Below, one piece after another: positions 2-17,019 of a stretch of 64,000 bases of DNA. The stretch lies in NCBI GenBank assembly GCA_000827205.1, contig KN832556.1, forward strand, positions 1,399,849 to 1,463,848, given 5' to 3'. Positions within the stretch are counted from its first letter, which is position 1, and each line of letters starts with the position of its first letter. Under the pieces are notes generated by a model that saw only the letters and a program-made list of their open reading frames with translations, had not been told where the DNA came from and made no database searches. A program made the translations under genes and the position numbers. This DNA comes from Plicaturopsis crispa FD-325 SS-3. Lineage: Eukaryota; Basidiomycota; Agaricomycetes; Amylocorticiales; Amylocorticiaceae.

Positions 2-790
2 CAGGTCTTCGCGTGCGGACAGTGCCGCCCATGCAATTCTGGCGACGAGAACTACTGCCAGGGACACAACGGCGTCTACCCAGCGGACACGTATAACGCG
101 AAGTACCCGAACGGCGACATCGCCGTCGGTGGGTACTCCACCGGGATCCGTGCGCACCAGCAATTCGTGTTTGCGATCCCCGACGAGCTGGAGGATGAAA
201 TCGCCGCCCCGATGTTGTGCGGAGGACTTACCGTCTACGCGCCGTTGAAGCGCCACGGATGCAAGCCGGGCGCGAAGGTTGGCGTTGTTGGGATTGGCGG
301 CCTTGGCCACTTCGCAATCCTCTTCGCAGCCGCAATGGGCGCGGAGGTCACCGCGTTTTCACACTCCGACAGCAAGAAAGCCGATGCGACCAAGATGGGC
401 GCAACGCATTTCGTAGTCACGGACCACGAGGGCGAGTGGGCCAAGCCGCTCAAGGGGAAATTCGACGTCATCATCAGTACGCGCAACGACACAAACATCC
501 CGCTGGACCTGTTCCTCTCTACGCTCTACGTGCACGGGAAACTCGTTGCCGTAGGACTTCCTGAGAAGCCATGGCCCCAAATTGCGCCGTTCGCGTTCCT
601 CCAATCCTGCTTCCTTGGCGGATCTCACATCGGAAACAAGACAGAGGCGGAGGAGATGCTGAAGCTGGCGGCAGAGAAAAAAATTAGGTCTTGGATCGAT
701 GTCAAGCCGATGTCGGAGGCGCAAGCTGCCGTTCGCGCAATTCAGGATGGATCGGTGCGGTACCGCACTGTGCTCACCGTGGATATCTAG
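2..790 (+). CDS. Zinc-dependent alcohol dehydrogenase (cinnamyl-alcohol/ADH6 type), 3' part
   Basis: The reading frame is open from base 2 to the stop at 790, so the N-terminus lies outside the window. The fragment starts with the structural-zinc cysteine cluster CGQCRPC followed by a fourth Cys in ENYC. The Rossmann motif GIGGLGH comes next. After the second strand the sequence AFSHSDSKK is of the kind seen in NADP(H)-preferring members. The medium-chain dehydrogenase C-terminal fold follows and ends in RYRTVLTVDI. Members reduce aldehydes, including cinnamaldehydes, to alcohols in the cytosol. No intron is visible in this part. Family assignment is strong; the exact substrate and cofactor are inferred from relatives. 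Confidence 0.9.
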   Translation, partial: QVFACGQCRPCNSGDENYCQGHNGVYPADTYNAKYPNGDIAVGGYSTGIRAHQQFVFAIPDELEDEIAAPMLCGGLTVYAPLKRHGCKPGAKVGVVGIGGLGHFAILFAAAMGAEVTAFSHSDSKKADATKMGATHFVVTDHEGEWAKPLKGKFDVIISTRNDTNIPLDLFLSTLYVHGKLVAVGLPEKPWPQIAPFAFLQSCFLGGSHIGNKTEAEEMLKLAAEKKIRSWIDVKPMSEAQAAVRAIQDGSVRYRTVLTVDI

Positions 791-831
791 GTGGTGGTCA
801 CGGCGACGAGGATGGATTATGGCAGCGGCGG

Positions 832-901
832 TTATAGAGGCTATAGAGTAGAGGTCTGGGCTTGCCGTTTGCTACAAAAGCAACTTATAGAGGCTATAGA
901 G
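832..901. repeat. 17-bp direct repeat in the 3' flank of the dehydrogenase gene
   Basis: TTATAGAGGCTATAGAG occurs identically at 832-848 and 885-901. The repeat unit itself contains the partial duplication TATAGAG. It lies in the roughly 420-bp gap between the dehydrogenase stop and the convergent LPMO gene. Nothing else recognisable lies in that gap. Confidence 0.6.
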
Positions 902-1212
902 CAGTAATACATATTGATTGCATTGGCCATAGAGACCCCCTTATGCATTATTCACCATGATTGAAGAGCATCGATCTACCTTCCCAAAACATTGGACGCT
1001 TGCGCAGCTATAAGGTTCGTACTGTCCGCACGCACACGCACTTCACAAATTTGCAAGATGCAGCGGCGCAATCATTCTAAGACGGCCTCCTTAGACATTT
1101 TCGCTCGACGGACACTATACAGAAGAAACAGCCTTTTTGTCAACCCTAAGAAAACATACTACCGTACAATCGAATTTACAGAATACTTTGTCGCAGTTGC
1201 TGCCGAAACAAT

Positions 1213-2255
1213 TTATCCCTGCCACACAGCGGGCCCAGGGATGGCGTAGGTGGTCACGTCCTGGTTTGCGTTCGAGTAGATGTCGATGTCGATACTCGGG
1301 TCGCTCCTGAAGAAACCCAGTGCAGAATCAGCTCACAGCCGAAAATCAAGTGGGAAGATACTGACATGGAGTAAGCGCCAGGGAATTTGACCAAGTAGTC
1401 TCCAGACGGGGTGCTGCTTCCGCTACCAGTGATGACCAACTGGGCACACTCCGGGTAGAACTGAGGCTGGTTCGAGGTGTGGATAGCGAGGAGCTAATAA
1501 TTATATCCTAACATCAGTACACATTTTGGGGAGGAGAAAGGAACCAGTCATACTTCATGGCGGATGAAGTACTCTCCGGGGGCGAGGGACGACGGGATGG
1601 TGGACGTCCAGGAGTTGTTGTTGGCGACGAGCTCGCCCATTCCCCAAGTGCCGGTGACCAGGGTACCGGAGATCAAGCCGGCCTGGTCGATTTTGAACTA
1701 GAGAGGCACCATTTACTCAGATCCGTATACATTAGACGGGCACATCCTAACATACCCATTCAAGCGAAGACGTGTCAGCGCTGGTGCAAGAGCCACCGCA
1801 GGAGGCCATGTAGACCATGACGGGGCCGATGGTGTGGGGCCATTGGTTCCAGTAAGCGGTCACCTATAAAATACCTTGTGTCAACACTCGCCACGGCTGT
1901 ACGCCGAGCTGACCAACCTTGGAGCCAGAGGCCAAGGTAGCGCTCTTCTGGCCCGACCCGAGCGACGCGCCGTTGGTGTTGCACGACAGCGACGAGGAAG
2001 TCGGGTCCGTGATGGGGTTGTACGTGTCCCACTCGCGCTGGATACTTGACTGGCCGACGGGGGTGTTGTACGGTACGAATCCGTTGTAGTCGACTCCGCC
2101 GAGGTTGTAGCTCAGGACACCACCGTGGGCGGCGACCTATGATAGCGCAGACGCGTTCAGCAAAGCATGCCCTTCACGCGTTGTGTGGGCTGAATTACCT
2201 GGCGGATCTGGGAGACGGCGAGGGCGAGAGAGGCGAAGGCGACTGAGAGGAACAT
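1213..2255 (-). CDS. AA9 lytic polysaccharide monooxygenase (former GH61)
   Basis: Six exons were read: 2255-2199, 2136-1918, 1863-1756, 1697-1554, 1493-1366 and 1306-1213. They join in frame to 249 residues. A signal peptide (MFLSVAFASLALAVS...) ends just before the histidine of HGGVLSYNLGG, which becomes His1 of the mature enzyme. His1 forms the copper histidine brace with the second histidine in WPHTIGPVMVY. The axial tyrosine lies in the family motif QFYPECAQLVI. These enzymes are secreted and cleave cellulose or hemicellulose oxidatively with a copper centre. There is no carbohydrate-binding module: the chain ends after the catalytic domain with GPAVWQG. A TATA box lies about 50 nt upstream of the start codon. 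The last donor was chosen as GTCAGT because only that choice keeps the frame SMSDPSIDID. Confidence 0.95.
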
Positions 2256-2304
2256 TGCTGTTGTCTTGTCCGATGCTGAAGTCCTACAACCTCGTCGAAC
2301 GCGT

Positions 2305-2311
2305 CTTTATA
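2305..2311 (-). promoter_or_regulatory. TATA box of the LPMO gene
   Basis: TATAAAG on the minus strand lies 50 nt upstream of the LPMO start codon at 2255, a usual distance for fungal genes with a short leader. Confidence 0.55.
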
Positions 2312-2319
2312 CCTCTACG

Positions 2320-3117
2320 CGCACGCGCTCCGGTACCGAATACATTCAAGAAGGCGGCTCTCCTGAATGGATAAAAACAGGATAATTGTCGGCGTTGAAA
2401 TAGACCTTTCGGTGCAACTAAGGACGTACGAAGAATGTGTTATAACTAGTTCATCCGATATTCATTCAATAGGACAGACGGGGGTCATCATGTGGACAAC
2501 ATTTAGACATCCTAGGCCCTGCGCGGATCAATAGAGGTGAGGCTGTTTTGAGAGTGGCTTGGGCACGAAGACCAGCTAGTAGAAATGTGACCCTTCGACC
2601 AATGCGATCCGTCGGCGAATCATTCGGCACGCGCACAGAGTTCCTAGTGCGCGAGACATCACATACCAGCCGGACCGTCGCAATGTCTATGCGGCCAACA
2701 AAGAATTTTCTAGCATACGCACTGACGTTGGTAAGCACTACATGGTATGTTCCGTGAACTCACATGTGCAAGAATAGCGGCCAATATCAGTCCTCGATGC
2801 CTCGGGGGACAAAGGGGTCTAAATGTAGAGTACATTGGTATATTTGCATTGGCTACCCAGTGTAACGTCTGGACGAATAGCCTTAGCTCAAAGCGCTCGA
2901 ACAAGAAAGACAGATATGTCATGACGCCGACATACTATACATGTTCTCCCGAGAGTCTTCCAGGTCGCCACCAACATAGCCATCTGAGCCTGACGGAGCC
3001 GACTTTGGCCGGGTCTTGCTAGCCCGAGAATATAATGAACCTAAGAACGGGCAATGAGCTTGCGTTATGAGTTGTAGAGTCAATTGTGTCCCGTACCTTC
3101 ATCCCAAGAGTAATAAT
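2320..3117. other. Region without recognisable gene
   Basis: Only short open frames on both strands are present. None resembles a known protein or has plausible splice partners. It contains the LPMO upstream region and the 3' flank of the PRKRIP1-like gene. Confidence 0.5.
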
Positions 3118-3887
3118 TCAGTCGTCTTCGTGGAATATAATTCGCGGTGCGTCGATGACCCGCGGCTGCTCAGCGCCATCAACAGCCTTTTCAAGTACTG
3201 GTGCGTCCTCTGCATCCTCTGCCCGGTCTTCAACCACGCCATGATTGTCGTCTTCGTCGCCACTGTCGTCGCCAGGTCGCTTGAACACCAACTCCTGACC
3301 GTTCACCAACCGCCGCTTCTTTATTGGCGCGTTCCCAGATCCACTGCCAGGCCCAATAACCCGATCCTCGTTATCTTCTCCATTGCCCGGCTTTGCTTTC
3401 GAGCGCTCTTTCTTCTTCTGCCTCTTGGCGCGGTTCTTGGATGTTTTCGCCTCAGCGATGGCCTCTGCCTCTTTTCGCTTGCGTTCGAATTCTGCTGCTT
3501 CTGCCTCCTGTAGGTAGAAAAAGGTAATGAGATCGAATACGCGCAGATAGAGGGTGGCGATGCCGCATATGTGGACTCCGGACGAACCTTTTGCGCTGTT
3601 TCGTCGAGCAATTTCAACCGCTCGTACTCTCTCCGTCTGCTAGCCTTGTAGACGTGAAACTCGCCACTCCCTGCTCCCGCACTAGACCCCTGCACGTTTT
3701 TCATCATTTCGCGCGGCGGCCGTACCGTCTTCTCTTTTGGCGGAGGCGGCACATAGGCGGGTTTCGTGGGGTCTTTGAGAAGCTTTTCAAGCTGAGACCG
3801 CTGGCGTTCCACAGCTGTTGGGGTGTGTCGATTGACTGGACCTCCTGTGACAATGGCAGAGGACGTGGGCGTCGGTGATTTAGACAT
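3118..3887 (-). CDS. PRKRIP1-like spliceosome-associated protein (DUF1168)
   Basis: Two exons, 3887-3588 and 3507-3118, are joined by an 80-nt intron (GTTCGT...CTACAG) and give 229 residues. The diagnostic core GSSAGAGSGEFHVYKASRRREYERL is nearly identical to animal PRKRIP1 (C114), a protein that bridges spliceosome components in late complexes. Downstream is a long basic helix rich in Lys, Arg and Glu (KNRAKRQKKKERSKAK), then an acidic tail ending in IIFHEDD. The start at MSKSPTPTSS was taken because the open frame upstream of it has no matching conserved sequence. A nuclear role in splicing is inferred from the family. Confidence 0.9.
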
Positions 3888-9333: not shown

Positions 9334-12300
9334 CTATGCAGGCGGTTGGGTATCCCTCCTCAAACCAAAGCTCACGAATCGGCGGAAGTCAGAAAACACC
9401 TCGCGTTTCTGCCCCTCGGCGCCTACGGTGCGATCGCTGGACCCGGTAGATGGCCCGCTCAGTGGAGGGGATCCCAGGGCTGCGAACATGCTTTCGCCAC
9501 TGGAGATGGGTAGATTCACACGGCTGGCGTTTGGACTTCCGATGTGGGACGTCGCGGAAGGGTCCATGTCGAGCGATGACAGGAACGAGGTGCTCTCCAG
9601 CTCATTCTTCGTGCTGGTGATTGTCACAAACGAGTCCAAGAGACTGTTCTGCTCGGCCTTTGGCGTGCCCTTGAGGTCAAGTATCTGTCGACACCAACCG
9701 TTAGACACAAAAGCTAGCGAACGGGTCCGTATGCGTACTTTTTGGAAGTTCGAGAATGACAGGTCGCCAATAAGGAGGGTATAGTTCAATATAAACCCTT
9801 CCGGTGGGTCCTGAGATGCTGTTAGTCATGCTATATACTGAGTCACGACACGAACGTACGACGGGAGTGACGATGACTTTCAGCAGGGCTTCCAGTCTGG
9901 CAATGTTTTTGTCTACGCCTCGAGTGTAACTGGGCGAAAAGTTTAGTTTTAAGATCTGCACTCAAGGATACACTCGTCCACGCACCTGGTAGTCGACAAT
10001 GCTTCGCCTGGCAATCTCAGCAAGCATGCCTTGATGCCCTGCATATCGATCAATAACTACAGCAGAGTGTACAATCAGACTTTTTGCAAGAAAGAGGCCA
10101 ATCACAACTTTCGCTGTACCTGCTCCGCCCCGGCTTCCTTCAAAGGCCGGCTCTTCACGAGTGCATTGGTGAATTTCGTCAGAGTCAAACTGAAGAGTCC
10201 ACGGTTGAGAATGACCTGTTATTTGAGAGACGATCGTACTCACCTCGCGGCCTTATCAAATAGGTTCCTCAAGTACTTCTTTTGCTCAATCAGAGGCTTT
10301 ATGAGATCAGCCACACTTTCCGCGCCCTTGACTAGGTCATCGATGAAAGCAGATTGCCCGCTAACTTGATTCAAATTGCTCCAAGTCGTCCGCCCCATAG
10401 CAGCATACGCGGACTCCGTTGCCGACTCTAGTTCGCGCAGGAGCACCGTGATAGCTGACGATATTACGCTGTACCCGACTTCAGCAAAGGGACGGTCAAG
10501 CTGCTTGCGCGTGCACGAACCTTACGAAAATGTCTCGCTCGGACTGTAGGGAGACCTTATCTTTGTATTCCTCGTCAACGCTCTCCCGTATCTTTTCCTC
10601 GAGCTGCAGAAGGATGGTTCAGCTATGGGCCAAAGACGTAACGACGTGTACATACCTCAGAGGCAGTGGTCTGGCAATAGTCCGCCGTGTTGATGATAAG
10701 GCACGCGTGCTTTATCTCGTTGGCGTCAAAACGCGTGTCCATTGACCGGCGAGGTTGCGAGACGGTCGGTCTGCTCTCGTTTATGTCAGCATAGGCATAG
10801 TGTTGAAAGACGAGAGCAATTTCAACCGTTTCATGCTGGCCACTAGGACATCCTCTACGTCATACAATCAGTATAGCACACAGACGCACGCCAGGTTACC
10901 CCACGCACCCGCATACACCTTCAACCATTTCTTGCATACACCTCCAAGATCAAATAGCGCACGACCCGTGCCCGCAGAGAGCTTTGCACACTGCTCTAAA
11001 CTCTGTCCGTAGAAGTAGAACAGCTCTGTCGAGGATGGCAATACGACGACAGGTGAATCAGCGACGTCCGCGCCATCCGGATTTGTAGCTGTTTCCAGCG
11101 ACCGTCGGGATGACCTTGCTTTGCTCCCGCGATGGGGTGCGAGCATGTCCGCCAGCGCTCTGTCCGGGAGGTCAGCAGCCTGGGGGATGGAGACATAATA
11201 CAGACATACTTGTCTTGGGCATCAACAAAAACGCCCATGTGTGGCTCCCACGCGGAAGAAATGGTCTTCGGTTGGTGCCCAGGGTTGGACGAAGATGCTT
11301 TTATGATATCTGGAAGCTAATAGATACTCTGCTCAACATAAATACGGAGCAATGAGTCTGCGTAGACCTACGGGGGTCGCCCATTTACGTTCCATAGACG
11401 TTTCGAATTCGGTGGTAACCTGTAAAGTGTCTAGCAATACCTTGACTGTCAACGCGGACCCTGCTTTGGACAGCAACGCTGCCATGTCGTCCCTGCAGTA
11501 CAAGGACGTTTAGGCAAAGAACGGAGAAACGAGAAAGCGGGCTAGTGTACCTGGTTATCTCGACAAACAGCGCACACAGCGCCCATCCGACCTTCCACTC
11601 GGACGGGAACACACGCCCGCGCTCGATCTCGTGCGATTGAAGTAGACGTCTGAACCACGCAAACCGCCGCGCAATGTTGTCCAGGCCGCCTGCCTCGTTC
11701 GTATCGACGGGTTTGAATATCCTACGGTATTCCTTCAGCTCGAGGGCGACGTAGCGATCGACAAAGTGTGCGCGGACGTCAGGGCCGAGGACGTCCACGA
11801 CGAGGCATGCGTCTGCGATGACGGAGTGTTTCACGGAGTCTTGAAGGTAACTAGTTGCAAAATTGTCAACGGCAGCGCCTCATTTTTTAGACACAACGTA
11901 CAATGCGTCGAAGTCCGCATCAAGATGTGTGCGTAGCGTGCCTTGGAGCTGCTGAATGCGCGTCCAGACCTGCGAGATCCTGTGGACTGATGTGTATGGC
12001 TTGAATGATGCGGACAGTTGTTTAACTGCCTGTATCATGGATTGCTCAGGGGCGGCAGAGAGTACAATGCAACGAGGTGACGTACAGCGAGCGTTTGCGC
12101 TATGTCCGCATACTTTTTCTCAGTGATCAGGTCGTCCAGCTGTGTCAGCGCGTTCGCTGAACAAATATATGTTGAGTAGTCATCATGGCTAAAATCGAGC
12201 TAGAAACGCACCCAGCATTTGGAGCCGTCTCAACGTCGTCATACTCAGGATCAGATTCTTCTTCGCAAGGTCAAGCACTTGGATATCCTTCGTAATGTCG

Positions 12301-12768
12301 CGCACCACGGCCTCCGATTCCGTCGCCTTTTCGCGTATGCGGGACATTTGACCGAGCAAGTCCTACTCCCCGATGCACGGTATGTAGCGATTCATGGGGC
12401 AACGCGTACCAAGACGCACCGAGATCATTTCCTGAATGAGTTGCATTCGACCCGGGTCCTGATTACGCCGCAATTCCTGCTGCAAAGAGTCGATCTCACG
12501 CTGTAGGTCGTGCTCGGTCTGTGTGAGACGCGCTTGCACGGCAGCTATGTTACCTAGCGATGCCTCTAGCGTCGACCGTGTGAGACGTTGCGCTGGGTAT
12601 GACACGAATTGACGCACCATCTGGAAAGAACGCGTTCAACATGTCAACCGGGTCGAAGTTGTTCGTAAGGACGTCGAGGGGGTCCTCTGGCCCACCAGCG
12701 GCGGGAAGTTCGAGGACGCGCTGTATGGACGCTATGACTTCGGGCGGCAAATCATCACGGCCGTCCAT
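9334..12768 (-). CDS. VPS53: VPS53, subunit of the GARP/EARP tethering complex
   Basis: Many short introns interrupt the gene. The N-terminus MDGRDDLPPEVIASIQRVL, followed by DPLDVLTNNFDPVDMLNAFFPDEASL, is characteristic of Vps53. The E of FFPDEASL is rebuilt across a 51-nt intron. Next come the coiled coil (LTQTEHDLQREIDSLQQEL), DPGRMQLIQEMIS, and helical-rod segments such as ACLVVDVLGPDVRAHFVDRYVALELKEYRRIF. The C-terminal part contains CLIINTADYCQTTASELEEKI and a Ser-rich tail ending RRDTQPPA. I estimate roughly 850-900 residues. With Vps51, Vps52 and Vps54 it tethers endosome-derived vesicles at the trans-Golgi network. The gene reads as intact. Its 5' flank, about 210 bp beyond the start codon, runs into the inverted duplication described separately. 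Confidence 0.93.
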
Positions 12769-13136
12769 TTAGACTGTAGATATTGAGGCGACGCAGGGTT
12801 ATACCGAGGCCGCGAGACAGCTTCAACACCGCGTATTGGTATAAGGACTTGCTTGTGCTTGGCGGTCCCGGTCCAATTTCATCGGACGGCAGTCCGTTGG
12901 AGATCGCTGGGTTACAAGTTGGATCGGAGTTGTAAATCTCTCGGAATTGCCCGTTAGTCAACTCCGAGAAAGTGCTTTGGACCAGGCTCCTAAAACCAGC
13001 CACTCGTATCGCTCGGAGGCTAAATCCATTGACCACGTTTTTTGCATACCATTTTAAGACCGCCAAGAACTTCTTTTCCTCTAATACTACCGACCTAAGC
13101 ACTGTCCTCCTCGCGATAGAGCGGCTGGCAAATCAG

Positions 13137-13468
13137 TAGTCTCCTTTGCTGACCTAATGAGAGTATGACAGTCGATACTCTCTGTAAGGTCTGCTCCAAC
13201 ATATCGGTGGCGCGGTGGGGGGGTACGTTCGGTATTCGGAACTTTATCCGACGCGGCGCCTGCAAAGCCTTTGGCTCGTTTTCCCTCTACTTTTCGAGCT
13301 GTTAGCTACACCTCATCTATACACCTTTCTATCCAGTTTTTTGGCGGAGGCCTTACGAATAGCGCGTCCGAGCCCCTGCCAAAATTTGGGATTTTTCGGT
13401 GCCCGGGGAGGTTCCCAAAAACGCGAACGGACCCCCCCACCGCGCCACCGATATGTTGGAGAAGACTA
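13137..13468. mobile_element. 332-bp non-autonomous DNA element (MITE-like) in the left arm
   Basis: The element is flanked by GCAAATCAG at 13128-13136 and 13469-13477. The other arm keeps one uninterrupted copy (reverse complement at 13918-13926), which marks this as an insertion with a target duplication of about 9 bp (8 if one G belongs to the element). The outermost bases are inverted (TAGTCT...AGACTA). A 38-bp inverted repeat with one mismatch lies at 13194-13231 and 13424-13461. The left end carries about 50 bp more than the right between the outer bases and this repeat, including an 8-bp hairpin (GAGAGTAT/ATACTCTC). No coding capacity was seen. A 9-bp duplication would suit a Mutator-like family and 8 bp a hAT family; this is unresolved. 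Confidence 0.75.
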
Positions 13469-13971
13469 GCAAATCAGGCAGTGCCGAACTGCAAACCTCG
13501 GGTGCCGAGCGCGTTTTACTCGACCTGTGGCGCGACGGTTTCACCGTCGTCCCGCCTCCTGCGCTTTGCGCAGGGCCAAATAAACTGCTTCTGCATCGCA
13601 GAAAATTCATTCTGGATGTATCCTGGATGCTCCAATTTTTTTTACAATACTTTGGTGCCTCATACCTGAGCATTGCTCCCTTTCAGAGTAACTTTCTGAG
13701 ATTTGAGCATGGAATGCTAGCTGGGGCTGGCACACACGCAGAAAAAAATGACAGCTGTGCATACACCCAAAGCTGAACACAATAGATGATTTTCTGCGAT
13801 GCAGAAGCAATTTATTTGGCCCTGCGCGAAGCGCAGGAGGCGGGACGACGGTGAAACCGTCGCGCCACAGGTCGAGTAAAACGCGCTCGGCACCCGAGGT
13901 TTGCAGTTCGGCACTGCCTGATTTGCCAGCCGCTCTATCGCGAGGAGGACAGTGCTTAGGTCGGTAGTATT

Positions 13972-14764
13972 TAGTGCTGCCGCTGATGTGAGGTGAACTC
14001 AAGCTGACCTCAACTCACATCAAGCGTATTACCTTTTTGGGTGTCTTGAGGTGCCTCAAGGTGAACCGACCTTGAGTTGCATCGCGAGATGATTGCCGAA
14101 TTAGAAAGCTCGAGAAATGTCGCGCGACGCCTGCGAGACGCGCTGTCGCGCGCAACATCCCACAGACCCGAGACCCTATGGGCTTGAGGAGGACCTGCCG
14201 GTAATGCTCTCAGATGTGTACCATTACTGTGAGATGTATTTTAGCCTTCGAGTCTTTTTTTTGCTGTGCAAAAGCTACACGCGCTCCGTCGAGTTGGATC
14301 TGCGCCGTCACTCACGCGGGTGGTTGGTCGTCCAATACCGTCTGCCATGACATACATGACAGGTAGACAGTGGACCTGGTGCCCGTTATTTTACCGCAAT
14401 GGGGGATGCCGCCGAGTGAAATAAAAGCTTTCCAGCGGTACAGCGTAGCTATCGAGACTCGCACTTTCGCAGGTACTTACCTGTGACCGTCAGCGCGTCG
14501 AGGCCGAGAGATACCCCCCACCTCGACGGCCTCAGCTCAGACGCGCGGTTGCTGACGCGGTGACGGTCCACGCTGCACTGAGTAAGTATGTGCATTGCAA
14601 GTGCGCGCAAGCAACAACGCGCGACGCGCTGCGGCACCCTCGGCCGCTGTTCCCGATTTGGAATCACATCTCAAGGTGAATTGAGTTGGAATCACCTTGA
14701 GTTGCTTGAGATGCACAGCCACTTCACCTTGAGCTGATCTCAACTCACATCAGCGGCAGCACTA
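13972..14764. mobile_element. 793-bp non-autonomous hAT-type element in the right arm
   Basis: The element has perfect 21-bp terminal inverted repeats starting TAGTGCTGCCGCTGATGTGA. It is flanked by an exact 8-bp target duplication GTAGTATT (13964-13971 and 14765-14772). The opposite arm has the empty site, a single copy at 13083-13090 in reverse complement. An 8-bp duplication and a TIR beginning TAGTG fit the hAT superfamily. The subterminal regions carry four copies of CTCAAGGTGA or its complement (14055-14064, 14670-14679, 14692-14701, 14724-14733), which may be transposase-binding sites. No transposase is encoded, so movement would need a partner element. Confidence 0.87.
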
Positions 14765-14873
14765 GTAGTATTAGAGGAAAAGAAGTTCTTGGCGGTCTTA
14801 AAATGGTATGCAAAAAACGTGGTCAATGGATTTAGCCTCCGAGCGATACGAGTGGCTGGTTTTAGGAGCCTGG

Positions 14874-15180
14874 CTTTGGACTTGACTTCCGTTCATTCGA
14901 CGCGTCCGGCTGCTGTGTCGAAGACTCTTTGACTTTTGCGAGGATATCTCAACGCGATCTTTCCTGTAAACACTATCCGAACCTGGCGGTGGGGCGTTCG
15001 GAAACTATACGATCCAAGAATTGACAAGTGTCTTCGAGGGGAACTCGAGGACTACAGACTCTGGACGTGAGTGATGTCCTAGGTGCACGGATGAATAATT
15101 CTATGCTCAAGTCTGACTGTACGAATCAGACAACTAGAATATTGACCAGTGGAACATAATCTATACCATCGCTACCCGCT
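14874..15180. other. Short intergenic stretch without feature
   Basis: Sequence past the end of the right duplication arm up to the next start codon. Nothing recognisable was seen; it presumably serves as the upstream region of the gene at 15181. Confidence 0.4.
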
Positions 15181-17019
15181 ATGCCTAGATCACCTGCGGA
15201 CGAATCTCAACCCTCAATTGGCCTCGATAGTCTTCCGCCACCCGGCATCCCCTCCTTCTTCCCGGCCCTCCTTGCGCGATTACGAACAGCAAATCCAGCC
15301 CTACCGCTCGATCCTATTGTTCTCCAGTCTATCCTCTTATGCTTGACAGCAGGAGGAAAGAATCTCATCTTGAGGACCCGTGAAGACGACGTAGGCATCG
15401 TGCTGAGACTGGCCGTTTCAGTAAGTCTCTTTGCTTCCAGTCTTTGAGGCTGCTTGGTGTTCCTGTATCCGCACTACTTGTTTCACTTATGTATGGACAG
15501 CCGACCTTACTTGCGTCGAGCCTTTTCAAATGCATATATGGCCCACCATCCTTATCGCGCTCTCAATTTCCACCTATTTGCTAAACCAAAATGGTTGACA
15601 GACCTTAACAGCCGTGTTCGGATATCTAACACACAGGCTTAGAATCCGTACGCCAACATCATCGCTACACCAGTCCCAGACGCAACAAGATTTCCTCACC
15701 TCCCTTTTCATCCCTTCCCCATCCCCATCTCCGTCGGTTCAACTCCAGCACCCGCAGCCCACGCCAGCATCGCCTGGCAGGCATTATGCGTCACCGCGCC
15801 ACCACCGTGCTTCTCCAAGCCCGATCCCCACAGTCCAGGTCACCCCGCCCGCGGATCCATCTTTCCGCCCTCTCGAGCAAGAGCAGGGTGAAAGTATGGT
15901 CCTCCCGCGCGCATTGGTCATTTCTGGCCTTGAACATTGCGAGATGAAAGCGCAGCGTGCGCTCGTCCGGGTGCTCGCCGAGGGGCGAGTCGTCCTGGAG
16001 GGTGCGGTACCGACACCGACACCCACGCCGACGCCAGGGAAAGAACCCAGTCGATTCGAGTGGGAAGAAATGTCTGAAGGGCGTGGAGATCCTGACGGAG
16101 TCTGGACCCTTCCCCACGGGTTTATGGTAGTCTACGTTTGTCCTGTAGACGCCAGAGAGCGACCGGGGATACACAAAACGTTGGTAAGTAGTTCCTCGTA
16201 TCGTCCGTTGACTGCGATTGACTTTATGTATAGCTCGACAGATTTGCGATGAGTGCGACGATAACTCTCCACCCATCAACCCGTGCTGCCTTGCAAAGTT
16301 CTTCCCGCACGGCCTCTACACCCACGCTTTCGACGTCGTCTCCTGTAGTGAAACCGCAACAACCATACCCCACCGCAAATCATCTAAGTCCTTTGTTTTC
16401 GCCCAAGGCCCTCACAGCTCTGCAGACACTCGCTCGAGCGCATACACACATCCCCCCGACGCTCAATTTCTATATATCCGATCTATTTTCCGCTGCCCGT
16501 CACCACCCCTTGCTTGACGGGACTCTTCTCAGTGCACGATCTCTAAGGGACGCACAGGAATTAATCAGAGCCGCCCGAGTCGTCTGCGGTGAATGGACCG
16601 GCGCTGAGCTCATCAAGACCGTGGCGGCTGCCGACCTCGACGACGCGGACGACGCCATAACTGAGCCTGTGGGCGACTATGAGATCGACGACGTTAGGAT
16701 GAGCGATGTCAAGCTCGGGCTACTTGACCCTGACGCGGAATGGCAATCCCTCTCCCCGTCTCCAACGCCGTCGTTCCGCCCGTCCCTCGCGCGCTCGGCG
16801 ATAGAGCAGACGGAGCCGCTTGCGGTATCCGAGGCGGACATCGCGCGCATAGTCCCGCGCGCGATATCGCACCGCCTGCGTGTGCGCGATGGGCCGACGG
16901 ATGAGATACTCGGCAGTGCGGTGTGGGGTGCGGTGTCCGGGGCTGGCGGAGATGAGGCAAGCGGGCGAACGCGGAGCACCGTGAAGGATATCTTGGTCAG
17001 GATTTTGTCAGAGGTGTAA
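15181..17019 (+). CDS. Mg-chelatase/MoxR-related protein, function uncertain
   Basis: The start MPRSPADESQPSIGLDSL is followed by IPSFFPALLARLRTANPALPLDPIVLQSILLCLTAGGKNLILRTRE. Further exons include AVFGYLTHRLRIR and a Pro/Ser-rich insert. The best clue is LPHGFMVVYVCPVDARERPGIHKTLLDRFAMS, joined across a clear intron (16184-16233). It resembles the part of Mg-chelatase and MoxR AAA+ proteins where the chain says that the lid and remaining subunits define the ring (NP...LLDRF). The C-terminal third is helical (LISDLFSAARHHPLLDG-like) and ends VKDILVRILSEV. No Walker A loop is visible. The exon layout between about 15421 and 15613 is unclear because no good donor was found there. Role unknown. 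Confidence 0.55.

Follow-up and report, generated by a model that had tools for sequence, protein, structure and literature searches.

The inverted repeat beside VPS53 in the stretch of Plicaturopsis crispa DNA analysed here (64,000 nucleotides, referred to as the window) is best explained as a set of nested transposons, and we hold this explanation as a whole with high confidence: an outer element with long terminal inverted repeats (TIRs) came first, and two smaller elements then entered it, one in each TIR. The element boundaries, the target site duplications (TSDs), the multi-copy status of the outer element, the existence of an insert-free paralogue and the deletion-derivative structure of the larger insert are all direct observations. 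An earlier note on this DNA had described the same arrangement as a local inverted duplication; much of its description stands, although the origin that it gave to the arms does not.

Boundaries of the nested elements

An inverted-repeat search recovered three arm segments in the window (Table 1), which together form arms in opposite orientation at 12982-13606 and 13789-14873. Once the inserts are removed, each together with one of its TSD copies, these arms can be compared over 284 bp and show two mismatches (282 of 284 positions alike, the outermost C/G pair counted), in agreement with the near-identity that had been reported; a match of such length excludes chance. The outermost C/G pair (12982/14873) is part of the 9-bp TSD and lies outside the TIR, and the TIR proper is therefore 283 bp long, beginning at 12983 with the terminal sequence CAGGCTCC. 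Removal of the two inserts and of the extra TSD copies leaves an outer element of 748 bp.

Table 1. Features of the nested structure and of related copies (window positions unless a contig handle is given; TSDs, empty sites and TIRs by sequence)
Feature	Position	Strand	Remarks
VPS53, 5′ part, gene on the left	11388-12768	-	ATG at 12768, read from the sequence
Outer element, left TSD GCTTTGGAC	12974-12982	.	9 bp, identical to 14873-14881
Outer long-TIR non-autonomous element	12983-14872	.	MULE-like by structure
Left TIR, 283 bp	12983-13606	+	split by the 332-bp element
Empty site for the 793-bp element, AATACTAC	13083-13090	+	in the left arm
332-bp element, left TSD GCAAATCAG	13128-13136	.	9 bp; second copy 13469-13477
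332-bp non-autonomous element, TAGTCT...AGACTA	13137-13468	+	inserted in the left TIR
Spacer between TIRs, 182 bp	13607-13788	.	
Right TIR, 283 bp	13789-14872	-	split by the 793-bp element
Empty site for the 332-bp element, CTGATTTGC	13918-13926	-	in the right arm
793-bp element, left TSD GTAGTATT	13964-13971	.	8 bp; second copy 14765-14772
793-bp non-autonomous element, TIR TAGTGCTGCCGC	13972-14764	+	inserted in the right TIR
Outer element, right TSD GCTTTGGAC	14873-14881	.	9 bp, perfect direct repeat
Arm segment pair 1	12982-13090 / 14765-14873	inverted	109 nt, 100%
Arm segment pair 2	13083-13136 / 13918-13971	inverted	54 nt, 100%
Arm segment pair 3	13466-13606 / 13789-13929	inverted	141 nt, 98%
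Putative start of divergent gene, right side	15181-15438	+	no Pfam match for the stretch
Outer-family copy	C3:1893369-1894501		both ends present; own 9-bp TSD AATAAATAG (script); centre mostly N
Outer-family copy	C8:1116683		one end readable; N past the matched arm
Outer-family pair	C2:2044974-2054715		both ends, 9.7-kb interval, mostly N inside; CATGAGGAG on either side (by eye)
Partner of the 793-bp element, 3834 bp	C10:1212534-1216367 (L013 1035-4868)		matching TIRs; perfect 8-bp TSD CTCGCGAC

Perfect TSDs are present at all three levels of the structure in the window, namely those of the outer, the 332-bp and the 793-bp element. The inserts lie exactly where the earlier note had placed them, the 332-bp element on the left with a TSD of 9 bp and the 793-bp element on the right with one of 8 bp, and each arm is uninterrupted across the site where the opposite arm was struck, at precisely the two empty sites that had been named. 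The TSDs and the empty sites together bear out the further claim that the boundaries of both elements can be read from one sequence.

None of the three elements carries a transposase, and the outer, the 332-bp and the 793-bp elements are all non-autonomous. Specifically, no Pfam domain exceeded its curated cut-off in the 13 frames scanned across the composite (five stop-to-stop frames of at least 100 aa overlapping it and eight more, 60-93 aa long, that lie over the 793-bp element), the only matches being three of chance level in two frames (best E 0.079).

The composite lies between VPS53 and the putative start of a divergent gene. The Vps53_N match (E 1.7e-23) falls in a downstream exon of VPS53 (11388-11879), and the first exon, which by itself gave no Pfam match, was assigned by reading. 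The VPS53 ATG stands about 214 bp from the arms, so that the distance of about 210 bp reported previously holds for the position beside VPS53, if not for the term “duplication” attached to it. The two start codons are now separated by 2412 bp, an interval that the composite has widened from about 513 bp, the value obtained once the element and a single TSD copy are subtracted.

The two inserts and their families

In the family of the 332-bp element, an end-to-end script test found a 9-bp TSD in all seven elements (the window element counted), the six others being 858-1190 bp long; loci at which the second end was not established (L028, L030, L032, L033, L034) were left out of this count. A close full-length copy of the 332-bp element was not found in the genome search, and its two parts resemble different groups of relatives: one group of elements shares 84-91% identity with its left 104-121 bp, and the elements at C5:1425447 and C35:41635 share 77-82% with its right part, rising to 86% over the outer 189 bp. 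Its ends are also asymmetric, in that a 43-bp inverted repeat (13189-13231 / 13424-13466) starts 52 bp inside the left end and 2 bp from the right end. Elsewhere, at C12:544173-562203 (L026, L031), two ends of this family stand about 18 kb apart, with the same 9 bp (ACTATCATA) outside both when read by eye. The interior of this pair, the only very long candidate for an autonomous partner of the 332-bp family, is mostly N, and the pair is possibly a very large member of that family.

In the family of the 793-bp element, an 8-bp TSD flanks four of the five two-ended elements (those in the window and at L013, L016 and L018), and L014 is without one; loci with only a single end or an internal fragment (L015, L017, L019, L020, L021) were not counted. 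The element at L013, on contig C10, is the partner of the window element. Positions 1-501 of the 793-bp element are 98.0% identical to one end of this partner and positions 503-793 (291 bp) are 99.3% identical to its other end, and the missing middle, positions 502-3543 of the C10 element, contains the whole of a 709-aa frame (970-3096). The 793-bp element is therefore derived, by internal deletion, from the 3834-bp C10 element or from a very close relative of it.

The 709-aa frame is the longest stop-free frame of the C10 element and the only one of its frames that was scanned; its sole Pfam match at E ≤ 1 is DDE_3 (E 3.8e-11). D, D and E motifs can be read in this frame, with 97 residues from D to D and 159 from D to E, and can be read at L039 too, and searching its sequence against solved structures brought up nothing meaningful (best E 0.59). 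Relatives of the 709-aa protein occur at C7:1235537-1237312 (L038; 59% identity, one stop in frame) and at C5:305160-306980 (L039; 56% identity, an open frame of 699 aa). A scan for TIRs of 14 bases with up to three mismatches and an exact TSD of 7-12 bp recovered the known ends of L013 and found no such combination in the fetched flanks of the related transposase loci L038, L039 and L040; the TSD length given for this transposase type is therefore taken from L013 only.

The outer family and the origin of the arms

Searched with its outer 155 bases, the genome contains at least eight matches to the outer TIR at at least four loci, the window included, both counts being lower bounds; the outer family is thus small, though multi-copy. 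A 9-bp flanking repeat is present at all three loci where both ends are readable (called by script in the window and on C3, and by eye from the printed flanks on C2), the C8 copy having only one readable end. In the alignment with the C3 paralogue, both of its arms are without the 332-bp and the 793-bp insert and run unbroken through both sites. The ends of the window spacer align with the readable spacer of this paralogue (82% over 57 and 90% over 29 positions), and a genome search with the 182-bp spacer gave no match beyond itself.

Because the window arms and the C3 arms are unbroken through the insertion sites, both insertions are later than the arms. The arms came ready-made through transposition and the insertions followed; hence the order given in the earlier note, duplication first and insertions later, is right in that the arms precede the insertions and wrong in that the arms are the TIRs of a transposon. 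In the sequence of events that we propose, a non-autonomous cut-and-paste transposon, about 748 bp long and with TIRs of 283 bp, inserted between VPS53 and the divergent gene, duplicating 9 bp. Subsequently the left TIR was entered by a 332-bp element, with a 9-bp TSD, and the right TIR by a 793-bp element from a different family, with an 8-bp TSD, and owing to the near-identity of the TIRs each arm retains the pre-insertion site of the other. The transposases that mobilised these elements were presumably encoded elsewhere and acted in trans.

The near-identity of the arms is itself open to two readings. Counted against L009, L010, L011 and L012 where these are aligned, the two window arms have ten differences in common, four of them adjacent, that set them apart from the other loci, and two differences separate the arms from each other. 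Likewise, a comparison by eye shows no difference between the two C3 paralogue arms in the arm columns of the alignment (the printed value of 295/312 includes spacer columns). Either the window copy derives from a separate source element, in which the arms already resembled each other, or its arms have been homogenised, and since both readings fit, arm identity gives no date for the element. Gene conversion between the arms, which would explain their present identity and make it undatable, is suggested by the excess of shared differences and by the similar state of the C3 arms; however, a distinct source element with alike arms yields the same pattern, and the four adjacent changes may represent one event, so that we consider gene conversion a possible but less probable contributor. 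It is in any case compatible with the nested-transposon explanation and leaves the logic of the empty sites untouched.

As for the superfamily of the outer element, its TIR length and TSD suggest that it is probably a MULE. PMC3310237 and PMC3903597 describe TIR-MULEs as having TSDs of 9-11 bp and TIRs of 100-500 bp; the outer element has TSDs of 9 bp (GCTTTGGAC, AATAAATAG, CATGAGGAG) and long, highly alike TIRs of 283 bp, and it resembles non-autonomous TIR-MULEs also in occupying several loci with different TSDs. It differs from TIR-MULEs in its ends, which are CAGGCTCC, and in that a transposase was unseen in the members of the family, of which the larger C2 member and the centre of the C3 copy are mostly N. 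The genome search for MULE domains returned no more than two matches, of which one fell under the curated cut-off, and the outer TIR (15 bases, up to three mismatches) was absent from the 4.5-kb and 4.0-kb stretches around them.

That no MULE transposase linked to the outer TIR was found would also fit a Foldback-type or other long-TIR element with the same nested structure, as would the fact that 566 of the 748 bp of the element, the larger share, belong to the TIRs and that the inner arms and spacer (13466-13929) fold into a very stable hairpin (z -31). Such stability is, however, expected of any comparable inverted repeat, and the combination of a 9-bp TSD and TIRs between 100 and 500 bp is how TIR-MULEs are described (PMC3310237 and PMC3903597). 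Tandem Repeats Finder detected no array within the outer arms, its sole row being two copies of 9 bp inside the 793-bp insert, whereas the arms of Foldback elements frequently contain tandem repeats. We think a Foldback-type or other long-TIR element less likely than a MULE, and it would change nothing in the nested-transposon explanation except the MULE label. A literature search yielded no recognisable description of these families in the excerpts available.

The earlier proposal, in which unique sequence beside VPS53 was duplicated locally in inverted orientation and then received two transposon insertions, would account for near-identical inverted arms that are older than the inserts. But a perfect 9-bp TSD bounds the arms, three other loci carry them, and the window flanks (674 and 559 bp), which lie outside the repeat, are single-copy and matched only themselves in the genome search. 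For these reasons the arms are TIRs and not a local duplication, which would call for unique arms without a TSD; we reject that origin as having next to no chance of being correct. The earlier note had itself set a shared repeat family against its reading, and such a family, albeit a small one, is what the recurrence of the outer TIR reveals. To order the events by their empty sites is sound, yet it is no evidence for local duplication, because any long-TIR element struck in one arm shows the same pattern. An assembly artefact is very unlikely: long inverted repeats are difficult to assemble and other members of the family are interrupted by N, but the window is free of N, the perfect TSDs of the three elements all differ from one another, and the same arms recur in a paralogue.

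Comparison with known systems

It is informative to set the 793-bp element beside the superfamilies that it partly resembles. The DDE_3 match of its partner, which we take to denote the IS630/Tc1 type, and the D, D and E motifs are shared with Tc1/mariner-IS630 elements. The target of Tc1/mariner elements is TA, however, and an 8-bp TSD is unexpected with an IS630/Tc1-type catalytic domain; the 793-bp family has 8-bp TSDs without a TA rule, and the 793-bp element shows no TA target duplication. Its TIR begins with TAGTG, a start that is presumably hAT-like. According to PMC12730594, hAT and Zisupton elements produce 8-bp TSDs, as the 793-bp element does, but no hAT-type transposase accompanies such TSDs here, the partner frame matching nothing but DDE_3 at E ≤ 1. 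An assignment to hAT on the strength of the TSD and the TAGTG end was accordingly set aside. The combination of a DDE_3 protein with 8-bp TSDs is offered as the one lead that goes further than an ordinary case, with one full-length element, that on C10, as its basis: the frame and the TSD are linked in this element, and of the other elements with the same ends three, including that in the window, have an 8-bp TSD and L014 does not.

The window structure requires no new mechanism; non-autonomous DNA transposons are nested here in a clean but ordinary way. What distinguishes it from nested insertions in MULEs is that a non-coding element has taken one insert into each of its TIRs, with the effect that each arm documents the empty site of the other. 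Every terminal position of a long-TIR element is present twice, and the empty site of any insertion into one arm is thereby kept; a single genome thus yields exact boundaries, together with the relative order of arms and inserts, which is of use in annotation.
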